Part shown: piece by piece, positions 2,405 through 24,906 of the stretch
Layout of the letters: each line of letters begins with the position of its first letter
Numbering within the stretch: position 1 is the stretch's first letter
Assembly (NCBI GenBank): GCA_913042995.1
Contig: CAJWMA010000005.1
Span: 1 to 35,441 of the forward strand
From: an uncultured bacterium
GTDB lineage: Bacteria; Planctomycetota; UBA8108
Direction: 5' to 3'
DNA: 35,441 nt
The notes under the pieces: generated by a model
What the model was told of the DNA's origin: nothing
Seen by the model: the letters and a program-made list of their open reading frames with translations, nothing else
Database searches by the model: none
Translations under genes and position numbers: made by a program

Positions 2405-5400
2405 TCAGGCTTCGCAGCCGCCGCCCTCACAGGCTCCCAGGTCGTCAGGAGTCGGGTCGTCACCGCAGCTGAAAGCGGGAGGAGGCAGCGGCTCGTCCCC
2501 GCTGAAGAGATAGCCGAGCAGACGCACCGCGTCGGTCACAAGGAGCCTCCCATCATCATCTACATCCGCGGCATCCGGGCAGGGCAGCTCAAACCCTCCC
2601 GCAAAAAGGGTGAGCAGTATCTTAACCGCATCGGTAATGTCGAGCTCGCCCTCCGCGGTCACATCTCCGCGCCGAAACAGAACCGGGGGCTCAACCGGCT
2701 CTTCTTCACAGGCCGGACGGGAGACGAGAGACGGGGCGAGCGTCAGCATGAAGGAGAGGTCGGAGCTGTCGCGGCTGGAGTTGTGAACACTCACCGCCAG
2801 GACATTCTCTCCCTGCCGAAGAAGCCCGCCATCGATATCGAGCGAGGCGACAGCGCTCTCGACTGATCGCGACGCCGTGGTGTCGTGCGAGACTGCGCCC
2901 CCGGGCATATTGGCACGGCCCAGCTCTTCTCCATTGAGGTAGAGAACAAGGCCGTCATCGTAGACCGCGGTCAGGACAGCCAGGCTCAGCTCGGCAGGAC
3001 AATCGAGCCAGAATGATTTCCTGCAGAAAACGCTGACGTAGCGGTTCCGCATGTCGGCCAGCTCGGTCAGATCATCTCCATCTCCATAGCCGATTCCCGC
3101 GAGACCGCGGGGCCAGGAGGAATCATCGAAGCCCGGCTCGCTCCAGTCGCCGGGAGGCTGCTCTTCTCCCGGCAGGTAGCTCCAGGATCCGTTTCCTCCG
3201 ATCAGCAGATAGGACGCCTCCAGCCGGGGAATCATCGAGAGATCGCCGGAGCCGGAGCCGTTGTTGTGGACCTCGATCGCCAGCACGTTGACGCCGGCGC
3301 GCAGCAGCCCCGGAGACAGCTCGAACACCTCGGGCTCCCCGGCCTCACGGCTCGAATCCGGCCGCTGGTTCCTGCCTACGGGGCTGCCGGGAAGGCCCAT
3401 GTTCTCAGACCGCGCCACCTCGGCGCCGTTCAGATAGGCGACAAAGCCGTCATCGTAGTCGATGCTCAGCTCCAGCGTCTCGACGATGCCGGGATTGGCC
3501 ACCTCGAAATTCTTCCGGCAATAGACGGTCAGGTAGCGGTTCTCCATATCGTCCAGAACGGTCGCATCATCTCCATCTCCGTAGCCGATACCGCTCGGAC
3601 CGACAAGCCAGGAATCATCTGGAACGAAATCGACCTCCCTCCACTCCTCGTCCACCGCGCGGTTGCCCTTGAAATAATCCCAATCGTCCCCGATAGAGAC
3701 AGGCTCACGCCGCTCGATGAGCGGGTATTCGACGAGCAACCTCGGAGCGGAGGCGCCGCTGTCCGATGAGGCGAACTGCCATCCATCAGAGCCAACCGGC
3801 AGGAAGGCCCAGCCATTATTGGCGGAGGGCTCGAGTGACCAGGCCGCCAGGCTCTCGGTGACGTCAACCTCTACTGTGCCTCCCGCGCCGACCACGTCAG
3901 CCTGCAACGCGGAAACGGACTCGACCCCCGGCTGGATTCCATCGCCGCCGAAGTCGCTCCAGACGGAAAGCTCGCTCCAGGGCTGGAGCATCCTGTAGAT
4001 TGCGGCGCCATCGCCGGTGTTGGTCGTCTCCAGTTCGAGCCAGGCTCTCTCAATCTCCACCCCGGGAGGCAGTTGCCCCGGCTGCGGTCCGAAGATGTCG
4101 CCGAAACGCAACAACCCCTGGGTAGCGTTGCCCGACCCGCCTGGAGAGTCGCTGTCAATGCGCAGGGCCTGGTCCGCGCCATGCGCTTCAGCCGGCGAGG
4201 CCGCCCCGACATAGGTGTCGACCGCCGCCGAATATCCATCACTACCCTGTCGAAAGCTCTCCCTCGCCTTGCTGCCGACCAGGATCTCGACATTAACCTC
4301 CACCTGGTCTACATGAAGCAGCTCTCCATCATGAGCGACCAGCGACAGGAGGTACTGTCCTGACTCTGAAAAAGAAGCCGTTGTCGAAGGCGCGCCAGGA
4401 TCCGTGAAAACGACCTCTCCGGGACCGCTGATGACCGCCCAGGAGCTCTCCAGCTCCCTGTCCACAGGCAGGCCATCATCACTCACCGTTGCGCGAAGGC
4501 GAACGGTGTCGCCGAGAAGAACGACGTCCATGTCCGCGCCCGCCAGCGCCCGGGGGCGCTCATTGACTCCGTCGAGAGCCGGGTAGGCGTAGGTTGAGCA
4601 GGTTCTGTCGGTCTCGTTGATGTCCCTGCAGCAGGAAGCGTACATCAGCGCCCTGGAGTCCTCGACATGTCCGAAGCCGAGCCCGTGGCCGAGCTCGTGC
4701 GCCATCATGCTTCTGTAGCCGGTAGCGCCCAGGCAGCCAACGCCCTCGTTCACCACAACGAACCAGCCGGTGATGGTGAGCCAGCTCTCGCCGTCAAAGC
4801 TATGGGTCGACGTCGTGATCGGCCCGCCATAGGCGAGCACTCCGCCGCAGCCCTCGATGTCGGCGATATCGGAGCACGGATCGCCAAAGAGGATGAAATT
4901 GCTCTCGGCGCCCTGGCTTCGAGCGCAATCGATACCGGGATCCCTGGAGCCGCCAAAGTAGAGGTTGCAGCTCGTGTCCGGAATCTCCATCCACAGCTCC
5001 ATGGCCTGCTGAACAATCCAGAAGCCTCCATCGCGCACCGAGGAATCACCCGCGCTATTGCCGTAGATCGTCGCCCATTCGCCCGTGTCAAAACGGCGCC
5101 ACCGCATCTTCCTCCCGTTGTCGGAAAAGATGGAACAGCCCTCCGGCTGCTCAGCACCGCCTCCATCTCCTCCGGGGACCGGCCCGGGACCCAGGCCCTC
5201 CGAGCTCCACTCGGCTCCAGCTCCCAGCAGCGCCGGCAGGTAGTTGAGAAAGGCCGCCTTGTCAAAAGGCCCGGGGGGCTCGGCCGCCAGCCCATCGGGC
5301 CTTGGCAACAGGCCGGCCGGATGCTCATCGATCGGAGAGAGAAGCTCGCGGCCGGCGGCCGTGGTCTCTACCAGCACTCCGTAAAAGAGCATTGCGGGAA

Positions 5401-5791
5401 TCCAGAGCGCCTCCGACTTCCGGCTCAGGCACAACAGATAGTTCTCATCTTCGGAAAAATCCGGAGAGCCGGGAACAAACCAGGCCCGGCTCTCGAGCTC
5501 GCCGCCCGGGGTCTCTACCTTGATGACATCGCCCGGGACCGCAGGCCCCGAATAGCTCGAGAGCACCTCGAATTCAGTGGAGGTGAACACCAGCGGCCCC
5601 CGGGCTGCGGGGACCGAAGCGCGCGCGCGCGCGAAAACCACCGCATCGGCGGCCCGCGCAAGCTCGCCGTAATTCCTCGGCGCGATCAATGACGCGGCGG
5701 AAACCGGCAGGCCCGGGAAGATGACCAGGGCGAGAGCCGCCAGCGCCCGGACGACTGCCTGGCAAATCGAATGTTTTCCTGAAGCTCTCAT
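2405..5791 (-). CDS. Secreted multidomain metzincin-like metalloprotease with PKD-like, DNRLRE-like, two jelly-roll-like and dockerin-like domains
   Basis: The ORF track starts at 6037. I prefer the ATG at 5791 because it has a GAGGGGGAA ribosome site and opens a signal peptide ending near VSA, giving 1,128 residues. Residues 365-375 read HELGHGLGFGH, the HExxHxxGxxH zinc site of metzincins, and a Met-turn follows (ALMYAS, Met383). The peptidase domain covers roughly 217-405. Next come a PKD-like domain (409-502), a DNRLRE/CBM96-like domain (519-691), two copies of a jelly-roll-like domain (703-860 and 867-1018), and a dockerin-like duplication (1040-1098). A Cys-containing tail (CGDDPTPDDLGAC...C) ends the protein. 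It is probably exported and degrades extracellular protein; the accessory domains suggest binding or surface display. A -10/-35 pair lies upstream at 5904-5932. Substrate and exact peptidase family (M10-like or M43-like) are undecided. Confidence 0.85.
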   Translation of the reverse strand: MRASGKHSICQAVVRALAALALVIFPGLPVSAASLIAPRNYGELARAADAVVFARARASVPAARGPLVFTSTEFEVLSSYSGPAVPGDVIKVETPGGELESRAWFVPGSPDFSEDENYLLCLSRKSEALWIPAMLFYGVLVETTAAGRELLSPIDEHPAGLLPRPDGLAAEPPGPFDKAAFLNYLPALLGAGAEWSSEGLGPGPVPGGDGGGAEQPEGCSIFSDNGRKMRWRRFDTGEWATIYGNSAGDSSVRDGGFWIVQQAMELWMEIPDTSCNLYFGGSRDPGIDCARSQGAESNFILFGDPCSDIADIEGCGGVLAYGGPITTSTHSFDGESWLTITGWFVVVNEGVGCLGATGYRSMMAHELGHGLGFGHVEDSRALMYASCCRDINETDRTCSTYAYPALDGVNERPRALAGADMDVVLLGDTVRLRATVSDDGLPVDRELESSWAVISGPGEVVFTDPGAPSTTASFSESGQYLLSLVAHDGELLHVDQVEVNVEILVGSKARESFRQGSDGYSAAVDTYVGAASPAEAHGADQALRIDSDSPGGSGNATQGLLRFGDIFGPQPGQLPPGVEIERAWLELETTNTGDGAAIYRMLQPWSELSVWSDFGGDGIQPGVESVSALQADVVGAGGTVEVDVTESLAAWSLEPSANNGWAFLPVGSDGWQFASSDSGASAPRLLVEYPLIERREPVSIGDDWDYFKGNRAVDEEWREVDFVPDDSWLVGPSGIGYGDGDDATVLDDMENRYLTVYCRKNFEVANPGIVETLELSIDYDDGFVAYLNGAEVARSENMGLPGSPVGRNQRPDSSREAGEPEVFELSPGLLRAGVNVLAIEVHNNGSGSGDLSMIPRLEASYLLIGGNGSWSYLPGEEQPPGDWSEPGFDDSSWPRGLAGIGYGDGDDLTELADMRNRYVSVFCRKSFWLDCPAELSLAVLTAVYDDGLVLYLNGEELGRANMPGGAVSHDTTASRSVESAVASLDIDGGLLRQGENVLAVSVHNSSRDSSDLSFMLTLAPSLVSRPACEEEPVEPPVLFRRGDVTAEGELDITDAVKILLTLFAGGFELPCPDAADVDDDGRLLVTDAVRLLGYLFSGDEPLPPPAFSCGDDPTPDDLGACEGGGCEA
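2408..2680 (-). repeat. Dockerin-like C-terminal module (copy 1 of 3 in window)
   Basis: The module starts at RRGDVTAEGELDITDAVKIL and contains a second half-repeat (DAADVDDDGRLLVTDAVRLL), then a Pro-rich spacer and a CGDDPTPDDLGAC tail. Two calcium-loop-like segments each followed by a helix are the dockerin type I pattern. Related modules end the proteins at 12197 and 15007. Confidence 0.75.
2738..3193 (-). repeat. Jelly-roll-like domain copy 2 (GIGYGDGDD family)
   Basis: Residues 867-1018 of the protease. Shared landmarks are W..PGFDDSSWP, AGIGYGDGDD, RNRYVSVFCRKSF, VYDDGLVLYLNG, ENVLAVSVHN and SSDLSF. It is tandem with the copy at 3212-3685 and similar to two copies in the gene at 15007. 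I infer a beta-sandwich fold from its pattern. Confidence 0.75.
3212..3685 (-). repeat. Jelly-roll-like domain copy 1 (GIGYGDGDD family)
   Basis: Residues 703-860 of the protease. Landmarks are WDYFKGN, SGIGYGDGDDATVLDDM, VYCRKNFEV, YDDGFVAYLNGAEVAR and NVLAIEVHNN. It is closer in wording to copy B of the gene at 15007 than to its tandem neighbour. Confidence 0.75.
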
Positions 5792-5903
5792 GGTTCCCCC
5801 TCGGCCGCGGGATTCCTGCTCCTGGAGAGCGTCCCTGGCCGGCCTGGAAAATGACGACATCGTTGCCCCGGAATACCAGGCCAACACGAGCTGCCTGCCC
5901 TGA

Positions 5904-5932
5904 AGTATACAGGTGATCAAATGCATCTCTAA
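5904..5932 (-). promoter_or_regulatory. Putative promoter of the metalloprotease gene
   Basis: On the minus strand TTAGAG and TATACT are separated by exactly 17 nt, about 110 bp upstream of the ATG at 5791. The -10 is 5/6 to consensus; the -35 is poor. Confidence 0.4.
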
Positions 5933-5988
5933 GCAGTGATTGCCGATCACGCTTTTCCCCTGCCCGCTCGCGGCCTCTTGCCGGACTG

Positions 5989-5997
5989 TGCTAATAT
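5989..5997 (+). promoter_or_regulatory. Putative extended -10 promoter of the DUF1080 gene
   Basis: TGCTAATAT matches the extended -10 pattern TGnTAnnnT, 46 bp before the chosen start at 6043. No convincing -35 is seen, which fits an extended -10 promoter. Confidence 0.4.
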
Positions 5998-6042
5998 GAC
6001 CGTCTGATTTTCGAGGAAACAACAGAATTGGAGGCACCGAAG

Positions 6043-7350
6043 ATGCGCGCCCGTAGATTTTCTTTCCCGGCTGTTCTTGTCTGCCTGTTCATTCCGGCAA
6101 CCCTCGCAGCGTACGAAAATCCGCCGATGGAGCCGGGCTTCAGCTCGCTCTTTGATGGGAAGAACATCGAAGAACACTTCATCATCAAGGGCAAAAAAGA
6201 GTCCTGGACCGTCAAGGACGGTGTCATCCACTCGCTTCGCGGCGGCAACCGGATTATCAGCAAGGAACAGTACGGTGATTTCGTTCTCCGGCTTGACTGG
6301 CGCATCTCCGACCAGGGCAACAGCGGCATCTTCATCCGCGTACCCGGCCAGGACGATGGCGCGCCCTGGGTCTCCGGCTTCGAGGTCCAGATCTCCAACG
6401 CTCCGCGCGACGATGCGCACTGCACAGCCTCCCTCTACGGAGTCGAGGCGACCAGTCCGCGCCCGACCAGGGAAGCCGAGGGCGCCAATGCCTGGCATAC
6501 CTTTGAGATCACCTGTCTCGGAGGGCGGATCTCCGTTCGACTCGACGGGGTGCTGAACATCGACGCCGATGAGAAAAAGAACGAGAAGATGCGCTCGCGC
6601 CCGAAGAAGGGCTTCATCGGACTGCAGGATTATCACGCCAGCAAGGGCTGGGTGGAATACCGCAACATCCGCATCCAGCCGCTCCAGGCAGACGGGGTTC
6701 CGACGGGGTTCGAATCCCTCTCATCCAATGACAAGGGGTGGCATAAAATCCGCACCGGCCACGGTACCGGCGGTCGGTGGAGCCATGCCGACGGCGCCTG
6801 GGAAGGAGAGCAGGATCCTCCCGGCAGCGGCAACGGCGGCGTCCTGGTTACCGACCGCAAGCTCTCCGACTTTGAGCTGGTGATCGAGACGAAACCCGAC
6901 TGGGGAGTCTGCAGCGGAATCTTCCTGCGTTCGACCGAGCGCGGCCAGTGCTACCAGCTCATGGTCGACTGGCACGGCAACGGGAATGTCGCCGGGATCT
7001 ACGGTGAAGGAACCGGCGGCTTCAACGTCCGCAACTACGAGCTCAACGATGACAAAACCATCCGCAAAGGCAATGACAACAAGCAGAACATCCCCCTGGC
7101 CTTCGCGCTTGCGGACTGGAAGAAGGTCTGGCGTTTCGGACAGTACAACGAGGTGCGCGCCCGGATCACCTCCAACCCGCCGACGATCGATACCTGGCTC
7201 AACGGCTGGCACATCTCGCACTTCGAAGATGATAAAAAACGGATCCCGGATGCCGGCGGCGTGGCCATCCAGGTCCACGGAGGCAAGGGGTGGCCCAATG
7301 GCGCCAAGGTGCGCTTCAGGAACATCAGCATCCGCGAACTCAAAAAGTAA
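6043..7350 (+). CDS. Secreted protein with two DUF1080 (3-keto-disaccharide hydrolase-like) domains
   Basis: The ORF track begins at a TTG (6028), but that codon lies inside the ribosome site TTGGAGG; the ATG at 6043 is 9 nt downstream and opens a signal peptide (MRARRFSFPAVLVCLFIPAT..A), giving 435 residues. Domain 1 (about 30-210) has the DUF1080 landmarks FSSLFDGKN, GDFVLRLDWRISDQGNSGIF, GFEVQI, and WVEYRNIRI near its end. Domain 2 (about 220-435) repeats the scheme: GGVLVTDRKLSDFELVIE, SGIFLRS, NEVRARI and VRFRNISIREL. The family has a LamG/concanavalin-like fold; some members hydrolyse 3-keto-glycosides, and it is expanded in Planctomycetota and Bacteroidota. The substrate is unknown. 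The thioredoxin-like gene follows after 19 bp, probably in one transcript. Confidence 0.85.
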   Translation: MRARRFSFPAVLVCLFIPATLAAYENPPMEPGFSSLFDGKNIEEHFIIKGKKESWTVKDGVIHSLRGGNRIISKEQYGDFVLRLDWRISDQGNSGIFIRVPGQDDGAPWVSGFEVQISNAPRDDAHCTASLYGVEATSPRPTREAEGANAWHTFEITCLGGRISVRLDGVLNIDADEKKNEKMRSRPKKGFIGLQDYHASKGWVEYRNIRIQPLQADGVPTGFESLSSNDKGWHKIRTGHGTGGRWSHADGAWEGEQDPPGSGNGGVLVTDRKLSDFELVIETKPDWGVCSGIFLRSTERGQCYQLMVDWHGNGNVAGIYGEGTGGFNVRNYELNDDKTIRKGNDNKQNIPLAFALADWKKVWRFGQYNEVRARITSNPPTIDTWLNGWHISHFEDDKKRIPDAGGVAIQVHGGKGWPNGAKVRFRNISIRELKK

Positions 7351-11004: not shown

Positions 11005-11964
11005 TCAGGAGCGGAACGGGGCCTTGTCGCCCAGCTCCTGGCAGAGCTTCTCGAGCGCCGCGTAGAAGACCATTCGCAGTTGGACGGGATCGCCATCCTC
11101 GTCGGTGGTCACCACCGCCGGGGTGATCTTCTCCCGGATGCTGAAGCTGTCGATAGATTTGAAGACCGCTCCCTTGCGCTTCTCCAGGCTGCAATCAAGC
11201 CGGCAGGTATACCGGCTCCCGGTCTTTACGCCGCTGAACTCGATGTCGCCATCAAAGCTCGAGGTCGCGTGAATAACCAGGCGATGCCCGGGATCTTTCC
11301 TGCTGGCGGAAGAAGGGTAGCCTTCGGGAATACCGGCCCCCTTCTTTGTCTTTTCGCCGGGCCTCCTGATGACCTTCACCTTGCCATCGGAAAACTCGAG
11401 CCAGTGCTGCTCTGACGCCTCGTGTTGAAGGAAAAAACCTATCCGGGACCAGGCGCGGGGATCGTCGGAAGGAAGATTCTCACCTCCCAGCTTACCGGTA
11501 AGCAGCATCTTGAAGACCGTGTTCGCCCCGGCCGCGGCTGGTTTCGCGACAGGCTTCGACGGCGGCTTGATCACGGGAGGCTTGAGCTCCGGGGGCGGAG
11601 CGGCAGGCTCCGCTGGCGGCGGAGGACTTTCTTCCTCGGCCGGTTCGGGTTCAGCGGGCGGCGCAGGCTCTTCCTCCGGCTCGGGAGCCTCGCGAACACG
11701 GGGCGCGGGAGCTGAACCAGGCTCTTCTTCGGGAGGATCGAGTCGGCGAAAAACAGGGCTTTTTGTTCGCCCTGCGCCGGCAAGCCGCTCTTGCTGACGG
11801 GGGGCGGGGCTGTTGGTGCCGACCACGACGAAGATAACGAGACCGACAACGAAAACCACGGCCCCAACCAGGCACAGGACAAGGGTCTTGTCTCCGGATG
11901 ACCTGCCCGGCCTGCCGTAGGCTCGGCCGCGGCGGTTCGATCTGATGCGTCTTCTACCGGCCAT
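11005..11964 (-). CDS. Single-pass membrane protein with Pro/Glu-rich linker, unknown function
   Basis: The 319-residue protein begins with an Arg-rich segment (MAGRRRIRSNRRGR), then one strong membrane helix (about 27-48), placing the N-terminus in the cytoplasm. Residues about 50-145 are a low-complexity Pro/Glu/Ala linker. A compact C-terminal region (147-319) would lie outside the membrane; it has TVFKMLLTGKLGGEN, WLEFSDGKVKVIRR and MVFYAALEKLCQELG. I do not recognise this domain. The architecture resembles proteins whose linker spans a periplasm or wall. A -35/-10 pair lies 59-87 bp upstream. It is divergent from the secreted PKD/dockerin-like gene and convergent with trpS. Confidence 0.75.
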   Translation of the reverse strand: MAGRRRIRSNRRGRAYGRPGRSSGDKTLVLCLVGAVVFVVGLVIFVVVGTNSPAPRQQERLAGAGRTKSPVFRRLDPPEEEPGSAPAPRVREAPEPEEEPAPPAEPEPAEEESPPPPAEPAAPPPELKPPVIKPPSKPVAKPAAAGANTVFKMLLTGKLGGENLPSDDPRAWSRIGFFLQHEASEQHWLEFSDGKVKVIRRPGEKTKKGAGIPEGYPSSASRKDPGHRLVIHATSSFDGDIEFSGVKTGSRYTCRLDCSLEKRKGAVFKSIDSFSIREKITPAVVTTDEDGDPVQLRMVFYAALEKLCQELGDKAPFRS

Positions 11965-12022
11965 GTCTTTCGGTTATCACCAGAAAAGGAGCTGTTTCAT
12001 TACCCGAAACGGGCTTAACGCC

Positions 12023-12051
12023 ATTATGACGCAAAGTAACCCTACCTCCAA
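12023..12051 (-). promoter_or_regulatory. Putative promoter of the membrane protein gene
   Basis: On the minus strand TTGGAG and CATAAT (5/6 to consensus) are separated by exactly 17 nt. The -10 lies about 60 bp upstream of the ATG at 11964. Confidence 0.5.
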
Positions 12052-12133
12052 ACCACGCTATGCAAATACCCGGAATAGTCCCCTTGGCGCCCTCAGGGTG
12101 AATCAGGCCGCAATTCGTTCCACCGCTGGCGAC

Positions 12134-12187
12134 TATAAAAAAGTTTTCAGCTTTGTTTTTCGATTTTCAGGCCGGAAAATGAGGAGG
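12134..12187 (+). promoter_or_regulatory. TATAAA -10-like box and strong ribosome site GAGGAGG
   Basis: TATAAA at 12134-12139 is a -10 candidate. GAGGAGG at 12181-12187 lies 9 nt before the ATG at 12197 and is the best Shine-Dalgarno in this gap. It decides the start I chose for the following secreted protein. Confidence 0.45.
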
Positions 12188-12196
12188 TTGGGAAGA

Positions 12197-14143
12197 ATGG
12201 AAATACCGCCTGCGAACAAACCGGCAGCATCAGGAGCCCCGGTCCGGTTCGTGCTGTCGACTTATTCGAGACTGATCATGAAACATCCCGCCTCACCCCG
12301 CGCAATGCCCGGACAGCGGCTCCATCGACTTTCCTCCCTGGTTCTTTGTGTCCTGTCGCTCTGCGGCCTGCCCGCGGGCGCTCAGCATTTCGACTGTATC
12401 GAGCTGAACGATGGGAACACCAACATCTTCATGACCCCGGATGTCTGCTTCAACGAGGAGAACCTCGACTGGTGCAATTGCGTAGACTCGGCCCTGACCC
12501 ACCCCGTGCGAGGTGAGACCAGCGGCTTCAGGCAGGCCATCCAATGGCTGAGCGGACAGCCCGGGATCGGCAATGCCCGTATCGAGATCGAGGGCGGCTC
12601 CCTCGACCTCTCCAATCTTTCCCCCGGTCAGCTGATAGGTACCGGCGAGGCGATGGAGCTGATTCCCCTCGGCTTCCCCTTTGTCGGAGGAGACTTCTTC
12701 GGTGTCCAGTTTGAAGTTCGGGTGGTCTCCGCGCGCGACAACACCGCCGATTTCCACGTCTCCATCACCTCGGTCACCCCCGCGGTCGAGGAGGCGATCG
12801 GCTACAACCCGACCGACCGGGAGCATTCCGATGGGCACCTGCTCACCGGGCGGCTCACAAGCACCGCCGGCGGCGGAGCGGTGATCGACTACCGCTATGC
12901 TACGGAAAACTTCGCGGGCGCCACGGTTCCCGCGCTGCTGCCCACCGAGGCGGCCATGCCGACCTTCACGGTACCGTTCGTGCTCGAGTTTTTCTCCCGC
13001 GAGAGCGGCATCTACACGGTCCCCGATGATGGAAACGTCCAGGTGCTGAGCACGATCCGCAGCTTCCTCGAAGACACGGTCGACGAGATCCTTCCCCTCG
13101 ATGCCGAGGACCTCTGCGAAGGGGTCGACGATTTCACCCATTGCAAGATGATCGAGGAAGATATCGAGATAAAGGCTTCGGCGGATGACAACAACCCGCC
13201 CACGGCAGTCATCACCGCGATCGACGCGGGAATCTTCCTGATGCTGGAGGATCCCGTCAACCTCGACACCTTCTGCGGCCGGGCCTATGTTCTTCTGCGA
13301 GGCAGGAACTCCGATGACGGAGATGGAGGCCACCAGGGTCTGACCTATAGATGGTCCATCCTGGAGGGTCCCGAGGAAGGCGCGGAAATACCCGCGAACA
13401 CCCACGATTTCATGGACACCCATGTGATCTTCACCGAGGCCGGGGTCTACGAAATCGGCCTCACCGTCGATGATGGACACGACGCCGACAGCTCATCGGA
13501 GGCCACCATCACGGTGGTCGTCTCAACCGAGCTGGACTTCAACGCTCCGCCGCTGATCGGGCTGAGGACCTCGCCGGCGCCGCCAGACGTCCAGCTCGCC
13601 GGCGGCTCAGCCAGCGTAACCCTGGACGCACGCGATTCCGATGGCGGCGGCGAAGGCTGCGAACAGGAGGTCTCCTTCCTCTGGCGGCAGCTTGGCGGCC
13701 CCGCCGACGCGGTCATCAGGAATCCGCGGGAGGCTGTCACGCAAGTCGTCTTTGATACCGCTGGAGCCTATCTCTTCGAGATCGAGGTTGACGACGGCGG
13801 CTTCCAGGACAACATCTCGGTTGAGGAGGTGGAGGTCATCGTCACGGCCGCCGCCGTAACCGGCGGCTTCCGGCGCGGCGATGTCGACGACAGCGGCCGG
13901 CTCAACATCACCGACGCCATCACCGTCCTCAACTGGCTCTTCCTCGGCAGCGCTACGCCGAGCTGCACCGATGCGGCGGACGCCGATGACAACGGGCGAA
14001 ACAATATCACCGACGCGATCCAGCTGCTCCAGTTCCTCTTCCTCGGCGGCCCTCCCCCGCCGGCTCCCGGCAGGGACGACTGCGGAGTCGATCCGACCGC
14101 CGACCTCCTCTCGGACTGCGACTACCAGTCCTGCGGAGACTGA
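12197..14143 (+). CDS. Secreted protein with two PKD-like domains and C-terminal dockerin-like module
   Basis: The ORF track starts at 11945. I chose the ATG at 12197 because of GAGGAGG 9 nt upstream (648 residues). The ATG at 12278 has no good ribosome site but would give a shorter, more usual signal peptide, so the start is uncertain. The hydrophobic core LSSLVLCVLSLCGLPAGAQ ends the signal peptide. Residues about 64-330 form a domain I do not recognise, with CFNEENLDWCNC and several Cys. Two PKD-like domains follow: about 333-443 (PPTAVITAID...YEIGLTVDDG) and 450-550 (APPDVQLAGG...YLFEIEVDDG). The dockerin-like module starts at 558 with FRRGDVDDSGRLNITDAI, then DADDNGRNNITDAI. The tail is DDCGVDPTADLL..C....C. 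No catalytic motif is seen; a binding or structural extracellular role is inferred. Confidence 0.8.
   Translation: MEIPPANKPAASGAPVRFVLSTYSRLIMKHPASPRAMPGQRLHRLSSLVLCVLSLCGLPAGAQHFDCIELNDGNTNIFMTPDVCFNEENLDWCNCVDSALTHPVRGETSGFRQAIQWLSGQPGIGNARIEIEGGSLDLSNLSPGQLIGTGEAMELIPLGFPFVGGDFFGVQFEVRVVSARDNTADFHVSITSVTPAVEEAIGYNPTDREHSDGHLLTGRLTSTAGGGAVIDYRYATENFAGATVPALLPTEAAMPTFTVPFVLEFFSRESGIYTVPDDGNVQVLSTIRSFLEDTVDEILPLDAEDLCEGVDDFTHCKMIEEDIEIKASADDNNPPTAVITAIDAGIFLMLEDPVNLDTFCGRAYVLLRGRNSDDGDGGHQGLTYRWSILEGPEEGAEIPANTHDFMDTHVIFTEAGVYEIGLTVDDGHDADSSSEATITVVVSTELDFNAPPLIGLRTSPAPPDVQLAGGSASVTLDARDSDGGGEGCEQEVSFLWRQLGGPADAVIRNPREAVTQVVFDTAGAYLFEIEVDDGGFQDNISVEEVEVIVTAAAVTGGFRRGDVDDSGRLNITDAITVLNWLFLGSATPSCTDAADADDNGRNNITDAIQLLQFLFLGGPPPPAPGRDDCGVDPTADLLSDCDYQSCGD
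13868..14140 (+). repeat. Dockerin-like C-terminal module (copy 2 of 3)
   Basis: Two near-identical half-repeats, RGDVDDSGRLNITDAITVLN and DADDNGRNNITDAIQLLQ, each carry a D-x-D/N-x-G/S calcium-loop pattern followed by a helix. A Pro-rich stretch and a CGVDPTAD...C tail end the protein. It aligns by eye with the module ending the metzincin protein. Confidence 0.8.
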
Positions 14144-15006: not shown

Positions 15007-17622
15007 ATGTCCATCACAAAGCTCGTCTTCTATTGCATTCCAGTCTGCATGTTGTTGCTTGTCCCGAACTCCAGCCTCAACGCGCAGAGCCCCCTGGTCC
15101 AGGAAGGAGACACCTGGCGCTTCTTCAGGGCGGTCTCCGCGCCGCCCGAGACCTGGGTCGACCTTGAATTCAACGCGGAGGAGGCCGGCTGGGAGAGCGG
15201 CCCGGGCGGCATCGGCTACGGAGACGAAGATGATGCCACCGTTCTCGATGACATGGCCGACAACTACATCGCCGTCTACATGCGCATCGAATTCGATGTC
15301 CCCGCTGAGCTTGCCGAGGCCTGGCTGCAGCTCCGAGTGCGCTACGATGATTCCTTCGTGGCCTACATCGATGGTGAAGAGGTCGCTCGCCGGGGCATCG
15401 ACGGATCCCCGCCGCTCTTTGACCAGGGAGCCTCTGTTGAACATGAGATCACCAGCGCGGACGGCTTTGATGAAGAGTTCCTGCTCGAGCAGACGGAGCT
15501 TGATACCGGCCGACACGTGCTTGCCGTCGAGGTTCACAATATAACCCTCGGCTCCAGCGACCTGTCGTTCTCCGCCGAGTTGGTCGGCTCGCAGCTGCTC
15601 GTGACCTCTGTAGACCCGGCCTTCGGCCCGCTGGAGGGCGGAAACACGGTGAGAATCCACGCGCTTGGAATTTTCCCGGGGCTCAATCCGGATGTCATCT
15701 TCGGCAACCTGGAGTCGCCCTCGGTTACCGTCGAAGACGAGTACATCGAGGCCGAGGTGCCCGCGGCGAAAGTCCCCGGAGCCGTGGATATCATCATCGA
15801 TACGGTAAACGCCACGACCGTCATCCCGGCCGGCTACATCTACGCCAACCCGGATGGGGGCATAGGAGGTCTCGATTTCACCGGCGGCCCCTACGCGACC
15901 GCGGAGGGCTTCAGCGGCATACTCGGAGAAGGAACCCTGCAGGCCTGGTTCCGGCGTGGAGCGGGGCAAGGCCAGTTCGCCAATTTCATCTACAGCCCCC
16001 TTGCCTCCATCGAGGCCGCGGACGGCTCCGACGCCTTCATCCTCGAGGTGAGACCCGGCAATATCCGCGCGCGGACCGCAGCAGATGGAGACTTCAACGA
16101 TCTTACCGCCACGACCGACCTGCCCGAGGGAGAGTGGCACAACATCTGCTGCACCTTCTCCGAGCGAGGCCGGGCGGTCTACCTCGATGGCCGGCAGATA
16201 GCCGCCGACAACTTCTCTACCAATCTCAGCGACTGCGACCGGATTCGCCTGGGCTCCCGTTTTGAACAAGACGGAGGCTTCTTTTCCGGAGATCTCATCG
16301 GCACCATCCACTCCGCCGCCGTCTGGGGCTTCGAGCGGTTCGAGGAGGAGATTCAACAAGAGCTCTTCATGCCCCCGTCCGAAGACCCCTACATTGGAGC
16401 GAGCTGGGAGCTGAATGAAGGCGTTGGAGACCGCGCGAGCGATTCCGGCGACCTCGGAGCCGATCTCATCTTCGGCGCCGGGCCCGGCGCGGACGCGGAT
16501 GATCCCGACTGGATCACCATCGACGATTTCCCAATCTTCATGGTCACCGGGATCCAGCCCGCATCAGGGCCGCTCGCCGGAGGTGAGATGGTCAGGATCT
16601 TCGGCGCCGGCTTTCCGCTCGAGGGAGAGGTGACCATCAGCTTCGTGGACCGGCTGGCTCCTTTCCTGGCGACGCCCTCGCCCACGGTCAGCGTCCTCAG
16701 CAATTGGGAGATCACCGCCGAGGTTCCCGCGGCGGAAGATTTCCAGGTGGTCGACATCCTGGTGGAAACCCCGGCCGGGAGCGGCCTCCTGGAGGCCGCC
16801 TATACCTACGCCCCCGACCCTGCCAGCATCTTCACGACGATCGAGGAGGGCGACATCTGGGACTACATCATCGCCAACGAGGCGATGCCGGAGGGCTGGA
16901 ACCTGCCTGAGTTCAGGCCGCAGGAAAACGGCTGGGAGAGAGGACCGACCGGAATCGGCTACGGAGACGGTGACGATGCGACCATCGTCACCGGTGTCCA
17001 GGACCAGACCCCGGCGGTCTACGCCCGCCGCGAATGGCTGCTCAGCGGCGGAGGCGAAAACATGAGCTTCCTGCGGTTCAGGATCCGCTATGACGATGGC
17101 TTCGTCGCCTACCTCAACGGCACCGAGGTCGCCCGCGCCAATCTCGACGGAGTTCCGCCGGCCTTTGACGAGCTGGCGACCGCCACCCACGAAATCACCG
17201 GCGGCGAGGGCGTCTTCGATGAGGTCATCGATCTCACCGATTTCCGTGACAGCCTCCGCAACGGTCTCAACGTGCTGGCAATCGAGGTCCACAACAACAC
17301 CCTCGGCTCCAGCGACATGTCTCTCTCCGCCGAGCTCGAATTCTCCGCGCCCGGCGAGACCTTCATCCGAGGAGATGTCGACAACAACCAGAGCTGGAAC
17401 GTCACCGACGCGGTCAAGATCCTGCTGCACGCCTTTACGGGCGCTGAGCTGCCCTGCCTCGAGGCCGCCGATGTCGACGACAGCGGCCGCATCGACCTGG
17501 AAGACGGCGTCGGGTTGCTGAACTTCGTCTTCAGACAGGGCGAGGCGCCGCCGCCGCCGCTCTACGAGGCGCTGCCGGACCTCGACAGCGACGAGCTGGG
17601 GTGTGAGTCCTTCGGGGACTAG
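15007..17622 (+). CDS. Large secreted protein: jelly-roll-like, IPT/TIG, LamG-like, IPT/TIG, jelly-roll-like and dockerin-like domains
   Basis: The ATG at 15007 has GGAG upstream and opens a signal peptide (MSITKLVFYCIPVCMLLLV...LNAQ); the ORF-track start at 14956 would bury it. The protein has 871 residues. Domain order is a jelly-roll-like domain (34-194; IGYGDEDDATVLDDM, YDDSFVAYIDG), IPT/TIG (198-281; DPAFGPLEGGNTVRI), LamG-like (288-455; GTLQAWFRR, GEWHNICCTFSERGRAVYLDG), a second IPT/TIG (511-602; QPASGPLAGGEMVRI), a second jelly-roll-like domain (611-779) and a dockerin-like module (787-871). The arrangement is nearly symmetrical about LamG. No catalytic motif is visible. It is probably an extracellular or surface glycan-binding or structural protein. 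The short tail LDSDELGCESFGD keeps one Cys only. Confidence 0.85.
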   Translation: MSITKLVFYCIPVCMLLLVPNSSLNAQSPLVQEGDTWRFFRAVSAPPETWVDLEFNAEEAGWESGPGGIGYGDEDDATVLDDMADNYIAVYMRIEFDVPAELAEAWLQLRVRYDDSFVAYIDGEEVARRGIDGSPPLFDQGASVEHEITSADGFDEEFLLEQTELDTGRHVLAVEVHNITLGSSDLSFSAELVGSQLLVTSVDPAFGPLEGGNTVRIHALGIFPGLNPDVIFGNLESPSVTVEDEYIEAEVPAAKVPGAVDIIIDTVNATTVIPAGYIYANPDGGIGGLDFTGGPYATAEGFSGILGEGTLQAWFRRGAGQGQFANFIYSPLASIEAADGSDAFILEVRPGNIRARTAADGDFNDLTATTDLPEGEWHNICCTFSERGRAVYLDGRQIAADNFSTNLSDCDRIRLGSRFEQDGGFFSGDLIGTIHSAAVWGFERFEEEIQQELFMPPSEDPYIGASWELNEGVGDRASDSGDLGADLIFGAGPGADADDPDWITIDDFPIFMVTGIQPASGPLAGGEMVRIFGAGFPLEGEVTISFVDRLAPFLATPSPTVSVLSNWEITAEVPAAEDFQVVDILVETPAGSGLLEAAYTYAPDPASIFTTIEEGDIWDYIIANEAMPEGWNLPEFRPQENGWERGPTGIGYGDGDDATIVTGVQDQTPAVYARREWLLSGGGENMSFLRFRIRYDDGFVAYLNGTEVARANLDGVPPAFDELATATHEITGGEGVFDEVIDLTDFRDSLRNGLNVLAIEVHNNTLGSSDMSLSAELEFSAPGETFIRGDVDNNQSWNVTDAVKILLHAFTGAELPCLEAADVDDSGRIDLEDGVGLLNFVFRQGEAPPPPLYEALPDLDSDELGCESFGD
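15106..15588 (+). repeat. Jelly-roll-like domain copy A (GIGYGDEDD)
   Basis: Residues 34-194. Landmarks are GDTWRFFRA, GIGYGDEDDATVLDDM, YDDSFVAYIDGEEVARR, HVLAVEVHN and GSSDLSFSAEL. It shares most invariant positions with the three other copies. Confidence 0.75.
16837..17343 (+). repeat. Jelly-roll-like domain copy B (GIGYGDGDD)
   Basis: Residues 611-779. Landmarks are GDIWDYIIANEAMPEGW, GIGYGDGDDATIV, YDDGFVAYLNGTEVARAN, NVLAIEVHNN and GSSDMSLSAEL. It shares the IWDY/DWDY opening and YDDGFVAYLNG with copy 1 of the protease gene. Confidence 0.75.
17365..17619 (+). repeat. Dockerin-like C-terminal module (copy 3 of 3)
   Basis: FIRGDVDNNQSWNVTDAVKI and DVDDSGRIDLEDGVGLL are the two half-repeats, with a Pro-rich spacer and the tail ELGCESFGD. 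The first calcium loop is less regular than in the other copies. Confidence 0.72.
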
Positions 17623-23415: not shown

Positions 23416-23496
23416 AGTCCGCCTTGCCCGGCAGGCTTCTCGATGCCAGGGAAACAAACGGTCCGGGCTGTGAATACTTCCCAGGAGAATCCCGCT

Positions 23497-24906
23497 ATGA
23501 AAACCAGGATCGCGGCAGCGCTTCTACTCGTCTCCGGCCTGCTGGCCGCGCCGCCGGCCTTCGCCCAGGAAACGACGACAAAGAAAACCGACACCGTCAA
23601 CCTCTTCGCCGCCGGCAAGCCGGCCTCGATCACGCTCGCGGTGACGAAGGCGAAGTGGGAGCGCCTGCAGCGCAACCCCTTCATCTTCACGGAGGCCTCG
23701 GTGCTCTACAACGGCAAGCGCATCGACGGCGCAGGGGTCCGCTACAAGGGCAACTCCACCTTCGGCGGCCGCGGCCCGCACAAATCCTTCAAGGTCAACC
23801 TGGGCTACTTCGGCGGCACGAAGAAGCTCCACGGCCAGTCGACCCTCAACCTCCACCACCCCTTCAAGGATCCCTCGCGTGTACGCGAGGTGGTCAGCTA
23901 CGAGCTCTTCGCCGAGGCTGGCATCAAGGCTCCGCGGGCGACCCACGTGACGCTCACGCTGAGGGTGCCCGGCATCCACGACGACTTCAACCTTGGCGTC
24001 TACTCGCTCGTCGAGCAGGTCGACAAGAAATTCCTCGGCGCTCATTATCCTGACAACGACGGCGACCTCTTCAAGATCGAGGGCATGGGCGATCCGTTCG
24101 GAGAGAGCCGCCAGCGAAGGCGCGGCGGCCAACGTGAGCCCTACGAAGGCTTCATCAACAAGGAGGGCAGCGCCCGCGGCCCGGCGCTCTCCTACCTGCT
24201 CGATGCGGTGAGGCGCGGCAATGACAGCGATCTTCAAAAGCACCTCGACATGGAGGGCTTCCTGCGCTGGCTGGCGGCCAACCACATCCTCGCCAACCTC
24301 GACAGCTACACCGGCATGGGCCACAACGGCTACATCTACGCCTTCGAGAAGAACCGATTCACCTTCATCCCCTGGGACATGAACGAGGCCTTCGGCAAGT
24401 TCACCTACGGCCGGTCGCAGACCCAGATGGAGGGGCTTGATATCTTCAGGCCCTTCATTCGCAACAAGGCTCTCATCGACCGGGCCCTGGGAAAAAAAGC
24501 CTGGCGGGCTCTCTACATCGAGAACGTAAGGTCGCTGATGAAGGGCCCCTTCTCGGAAAAGAACACCGTCGCAAAAATCCAGGCGGCCAACAGGCGGATC
24601 GCCTCCGCGGTTCGGGCGGAACCGGAACCTGAGCACCCCCTCTCTGAATTTGACAGGTCGTTCGATACCGGGGGCAGCGGAGTCGCTGGTTTCGCAACCC
24701 GCCGGGCGAGATTCATCAACCGACAGCTTGCCGACAAGAAGGCTGTCGCCGGGTTTCTCGCCAGCGGCCCCGGGCGAGGCGAATCCTCCGATGAACGCAG
24801 GGAACCCGGAAGGGGGCGTCCGGCCTTCCCCTTCCCCCGTCGGGGGCGGCCCGATGATGGGCCCGAACGCCGCGATGACGACCGGCGGCCTGAACGCAGA
24901 CCCTGA
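23497..24906 (+). CDS. Secreted CotH-family (spore-coat kinase-like) protein
   Basis: The ATG at 23497 has GGAG upstream and starts a signal peptide (MKTRIAAALLLVSGLLAAPPAFA|Q); the protein has 469 residues. Family landmarks in order are GVRYKGNST (80-88), KSFKVNL, LHGQSTLNLHHPFKDPSRVR, YSLVEQVDKKFL, DLFKIEG, ANLDSYTG, HNGYIYAF and FIPWDMNEAFG (290-300), which holds the metal-binding Asp. CotH of Bacillus is an atypical protein kinase; secreted members in Gram-negative bacteria are of unknown substrate. The last about 45 residues are Arg/Asp/Pro/Gly-rich low complexity (RRGRPDDGPERRDDDRRP). It has its own -10 box and precedes the pabA operon. Confidence 0.88.
   Translation: MKTRIAAALLLVSGLLAAPPAFAQETTTKKTDTVNLFAAGKPASITLAVTKAKWERLQRNPFIFTEASVLYNGKRIDGAGVRYKGNSTFGGRGPHKSFKVNLGYFGGTKKLHGQSTLNLHHPFKDPSRVREVVSYELFAEAGIKAPRATHVTLTLRVPGIHDDFNLGVYSLVEQVDKKFLGAHYPDNDGDLFKIEGMGDPFGESRQRRRGGQREPYEGFINKEGSARGPALSYLLDAVRRGNDSDLQKHLDMEGFLRWLAANHILANLDSYTGMGHNGYIYAFEKNRFTFIPWDMNEAFGKFTYGRSQTQMEGLDIFRPFIRNKALIDRALGKKAWRALYIENVRSLMKGPFSEKNTVAKIQAANRRIASAVRAEPEPEHPLSEFDRSFDTGGSGVAGFATRRARFINRQLADKKAVAGFLASGPGRGESSDERREPGRGRPAFPFPRRGRPDDGPERRDDDRRPERRP

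Follow-up and report, generated by a model that had tools for sequence, protein, structure and literature searches.

Two genes that lie close together in a planctomycete genome, one encoding a secreted M10-type metalloprotease (gene P) and the other a secreted non-enzymatic protein (gene L), carry between them four copies of a jelly-roll domain of ~160 residues. The reading that we favor, to which we assign a probability of about 60%, is that the four copies are members of a large unnamed domain family, that they most likely act as modules binding carbohydrate in a calcium-dependent manner, and that they are old copies with no sign of recent exchange between them.

Two neighboring genes with two jelly-roll copies each

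The window (the whole stretch of DNA analyzed, 35,441 nucleotides) is contig C5 of the planctomycete draft genome G000, which comprises 3.94 Mb in 464 contigs and is 90.9% complete. The features considered here are listed below.

2405..5791 (-), gene P, secreted M10-type metalloprotease, ~1128 aa from the ATG at 5791
4667..4699 (-), zinc-binding motif HELGHGLGFGH (HExxHxxGxxH), read from the sequence, residues 447-457 of the open frame
3194..3709 (-), jelly-roll copy 1 (prot_1), gene P
2729..3193 (-), jelly-roll copy 2 (prot_2), gene P
2405..2677 (-), dockerin-like EF-hand pair at the gene P C-terminus, read from the sequence, weak matches to solved dockerins (E 0.026)
15007..17622 (+), gene L, secreted non-enzymatic protein, starting at the ATG at 15007
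15088..15591 (+), jelly-roll copy A (lam_A), gene L
16828..17346 (+), jelly-roll copy B (lam_B), gene L
17362..17622 (+), dockerin-like EF-hand pair at the gene L C-terminus, read from the sequence, weak matches to solved dockerins

The product of gene P is organized as a signal-like N-terminus followed by M10, PKD-like and CBM96/DNRLRE domains, jelly-roll copies 1 and 2, which adjoin without a linker, and a dockerin-like C-terminus. Its zinc motif, together with a PF00413 match over the cut-off (27.2 bits versus 24), places it in peptidase family M10 (matrixin), and proteolysis is its predicted activity. The open frame extends back beyond the ATG to 6037 (longest frame 2405-6037), and a frame on the opposite strand with 3-keto-disaccharide hydrolase domain matches (6028-7350, +) starts 10 bases within that longest frame; with the start of gene P at 5791, the two do not overlap. 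In gene L the order is copy A, TIG, Laminin_G_3, TIG, copy B and a dockerin-like C-terminus.

The paired EF-hand-like segments that end both proteins resemble dockerins, and no match to Dockerin_1 (PF00404) was listed for either gene at E values up to 1. The genome as a whole holds 56 Dockerin_1 matches. A gene with PKD-like domains located between P and L (11945-14143, +) has a C-terminal Dockerin_1 domain just over the cut-off (23.8 bits versus 22.9), and three dockerin or dockerin-like genes are present in one ~15 kb part of the window. We considered a cellulosome-like assembly via cohesin and rejected it, since a search of G000 (90.9% complete) at E 0.001 gave no match to cohesin. In several relatives, cohesin matches do pass the cut-off.

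By sequence comparison, homology of all four copies is certain, because the BLASTP bit scores of copy 1 against the other three (112, 112 and 113) are far above the maximum of 27.7 obtained from 1,500 shuffles, which rules out chance resemblance. Pairwise amino-acid identity is highest between A and B (51%), intermediate for copy 1 against copies 2, A and B (43%, 44% and 44%, respectively), and lowest for copy 2 against A and B (36% and 38%). These values (36-51%) and the BLASTP scores confirm what the first-pass annotation had proposed from the letters of the sequence, namely tandem homologous domains in the protease and two more in the gene at 15007. The motifs by which it recognized the domains are indeed present, but not in every copy: three copies have GIGYGDGDD, the exception being copy A with GIGYGDEDD; copy A also has YDDSFVAYIDG where copies 1 and B have YDDGFVAYLNG; and RYxxVxCRKxF is confined, among the four, to copies 1 and 2.

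Copies inherited in place among related species

We read gene P counterparts carrying both copies in G001, G004, G002 and G007, the last of which belongs to another family of the order, and gene L counterparts in G001, G004, G009 and G007. Architecture was scanned in four of these. The gene P counterpart of G007 has M10, PKD and CBM96 domains beside the tandem copies, and that of G002 has M10 and PKD, with no CBM96 match listed. The gene L counterparts of G009 and G007 both contain Laminin_G_3 and two TIG domains, and the one in G007 has the sole Dockerin_1 match among the four proteins scanned, which is below the cut-off (19.0 bits, E 0.0017, cut-off 22.9).

Across these relatives, each copy is inherited at its own position. 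In a 75-row tree, all four formed clades with the congeners' copies from the equivalent position, and those of gene L did so also with the equivalents in other families of the order. Copies A and B formed sister clades (support 99/94) and probably stem from a duplication within gene L that predates the separation of the order's families. Copies 1, A and B lay outside the 13-row clade (100/98) that held copy 2 together with its G007 counterpart, and copy 1 of G007 did not group firmly with copy 1 of the congeners. Copies 1 and 2 probably derive from two domain lineages that were brought side by side, likewise before those families diverged. The first-pass annotation had looked to a pairing of each gene's copies as the sign against exchange between the genes; A and B of gene L do pair, but copies 1 and 2 of gene P stand apart in the best tree.

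That copies 1 and 2 are instead a simple tandem duplication within the protease gene, strongly diverged since, is in our judgment unlikely. The two copies adjoin without a linker, they have RYxxVxCRKxF in common, and an AU test did not firmly reject a tree uniting them in one clade (p 0.208 and 0.102); however, the p value was 0.049 in a second data set, with all of these tests drawing on ~165 columns, which are weak for deep branches, and the well-supported 13-row clade separates copy 2 from copy 1.

A very improbable reading is that genes P and L have exchanged domains or undergone gene conversion. The first-pass annotation suggested exchange on the grounds that copy 1 shares its wording with copy B rather than with its tandem neighbor. 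Copies 1 and B do have particular words in common (YDDGFVAYLNG and NVLAIEVHN), but over the whole domain copy 1 shows 44% identity with B and 43% with copy 2, so that the claim rests on a few words, and its identity to B is below its identity to most other members of alignment A2. Moreover, among 190 family domains, YDDGFVAYLNG is present in 48, GIGYGDGDD in 49 and SSDLS-like ends in 70, and the common wording is mostly family consensus. NVLAIEVHN is rarer (9/190), and its carriers are copy B in the window, G001, G004 and G007, copy 1 in the window and G001, and three domains at other loci. A tree joining copies 1 and B was not rejected, with a likelihood 3.3 units above that of the free tree (p 0.575; p 0.28 in the second data set, again with ~165 columns), yet each copy clusters with those at the equivalent position in other genomes. 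The DNA comparison of G000, G001 and G004 bears on the same question. A copy and its own counterpart are 74-97% identical in these genomes, and different copies are 46-62% identical, a range that holds both for pairs within one genome and for pairs across genomes. For copy 1 against B specifically, identity is 56, 55 and 57% within the three genomes and 55-58% between genomes. Gene conversion since the species split would raise identity within genomes, and since no rise is seen there is no sign of conversion; exchange is thus contradicted for the time since these three species separated. With ~165 aligned columns, the trees neither establish nor reject a deeper affinity of copy 1 with copy B.

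A predicted galactose-binding-like fold with an invariant D-D...N site

The AlphaFold2 model of copy 1, built with an 88-sequence alignment, has a mean pLDDT of 95.6 and a pTM of 0.90. Its best PDB matches by Foldseek are GH2 beta-glucuronidases and LacZ beta-galactosidases (E ~1e-5, prob 1.00), in which the matching part is the N-terminal sugar-binding jelly roll of the GH2 enzymes; the matches are moderate, with TM-scores of ~0.5-0.6 over the query and 12-20% identity in the matches listed. There is also a weak profile match between the domain and the GH2 beta-galactosidase 7cwd (E 1.8e-4). Unlike GH2 enzymes, genes P and L have no listed GH2 catalytic domain. The predicted structure places the domain in the galactose-binding-like jelly-roll superfamily, and its high pLDDT and GH2 matches support the fold that had been proposed from the sequence.

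CBM67 modules are galactose-binding-like jelly rolls. Seven residues of our domain are invariant in all 88 aligned sequences (W23, G42, T50, D86, D87, N149 and D156), and D45, D47 and D48 are present in 87 of them. A HMMER alignment, from which the SaRha78A residue numbers were counted, sets D86/D87 on D179/N180 and N149 on N228 of the alpha-L-rhamnosidase SaRha78A, with D87 standing for N180. We take D179, N180 and N228 to be the calcium and rhamnose ligands of that protein. SaRha78A carries a calcium-dependent CBM67 (PMC4690510). Two parts of this CBM67 (PDB 3w5m/3w5n) align with the domain, the D-D/N motif that precedes the YxNG strand and the G-N-x-L-A-V...N strand. The similarity is weak and does not extend over the whole domain, as the second half alone aligns and no curated cut-off is reached, and the GxGYGDGDDAT signature is missing from the aligned CBM67 sequences. 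The settings of the two also differ, CBM67 in this comparison being part of an alpha-L-rhamnosidase and the domain described here residing on proteases and surface proteins.

The NCBIfam rhamnosidase model matched 81 of the 88 members under its cut-off (best E 4.9e-7), with the match of copy 1 spanning model positions 153-232, and hhalign against a profile of same-phylum GH78 relatives gave a probability of 95% over 67 columns. G000 itself has no match to the NCBIfam rhamnosidase model at E 1e-40. Two Pfam models gave sub-threshold matches in a few members, BetaGal_ABD2 (PF13364) in 6/88 (best E 0.0026) and Bac_rhamnosid_N (PF08531) in 5/88 (best E 0.0043), and no carbohydrate-binding family matched the domain sequence at its curated cut-off.

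A very abundant domain without a name

The first-pass annotation had drawn attention to four copies within 15 kb. The local excess is there, but a profile made from the four copies finds 49 matches in G000, 23-42 in each of four congeners and 10-77 per genome across the order, and on these counts and those from other phyla the domain is very abundant and the four copies are one local cluster of it. Genomes of family f5, which belongs to the same class (G011, G013-G022, G024-G028), have only 2-3 copies each versus the 10-77 of the window's order, a large and lineage-specific gap.

A scan of named genomes found at least 535 confirmed relatives across many phyla, the best 80 of which come from Planctomycetota, Verrucomicrobiota, Bacteroidota, Chloroflexota, Sumerlaeota and others, with some records being MAGs. 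The closest named relative of copy 1 among the matches listed, at 78% identity, is from a Planctomycetota MAG (ALOHA_A2.5_93 isolate). Partner domains in the carriers sampled include LTD, CotH, metallophosphoesterase, DUF1800 and LVIVD repeats, among others. CotH is a partner of the domain in G000 as well as in other genomes, and the window itself contains a CotH kinase gene (23443-24906, +) with no other Pfam domains at E 0.001. One G000 protein, L020 (358-3504, G000:C99), has a Ser/Thr kinase domain at its N-terminus, a weak match to TPR and two jelly-roll copies close to each other; for a module presumed to bind outside the cell, a kinase is an unexpected companion.

A known named family was considered as the source of the pattern and set aside, no Pfam or NCBIfam model in the libraries searched being above its cut-off over the domain. 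Among the papers listed in our literature search, none dealt with such domains in planctomycetes. The family is without a name in these libraries, yet it is a familiar kind of accessory domain.

Proposed function

For the jelly rolls we infer calcium binding, sugar binding and a tethering role. Calcium-dependent sugar binding is our best guess, made from the alignment because D86, D87 and N149 are invariant and correspond to D179, N180 and N228 of SaRha78A. The context is in line with glycan binding, the domain being accompanied by PKD, CBM96, LamG and TIG domains here and by LTD, CotH and metallophosphoesterase domains elsewhere. The jelly rolls would anchor a secreted protein to polysaccharides or to other material rich in glycans and, in gene P, may keep the matrixin-type protease at its substrate.

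The invariant acidic residues could, however, bind calcium purely to stabilize the fold. The domain would then be a structural spacer or a calcium-stabilized protein-protein adhesion module with no sugar ligand, in which the aspartates hold the fold. Its presence in 49 places in one genome, next to neighbors as unrelated as LTD, CotH, metallophosphoesterase, DUF1800 and a kinase, is what a general-purpose module would give, and in the kinase carrier L020, with its weak match to TPR, a role in sugar binding is less obvious. We nevertheless regard a spacer or protein-protein adhesion module as rather unlikely, since the alignment of D86, D87 and N149 falls on the corresponding residues of a CBM67-bearing rhamnosidase and the fold neighbors listed are glycosidases.

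Carbohydrate binding that depends on calcium remains the reading that we prefer for the four copies. A broader proposal, which we advance tentatively and at somewhat less than even odds, is that the domain represents an undescribed calcium-dependent CBM family, marked by GxGYGDGDDAT, YDDGF and VHN...SSDLS, that serves as a general adhesion module of secreted proteases and surface proteins and has greatly expanded in some planctomycetes. The practical importance is that a domain found in ~50 places of one genome and in many phyla lacks a Pfam or NCBIfam model of its own in the libraries searched. A named model that includes the invariant D-D...N site would allow hundreds of secreted proteins to be annotated and sugar binding to be tested directly with mutants.
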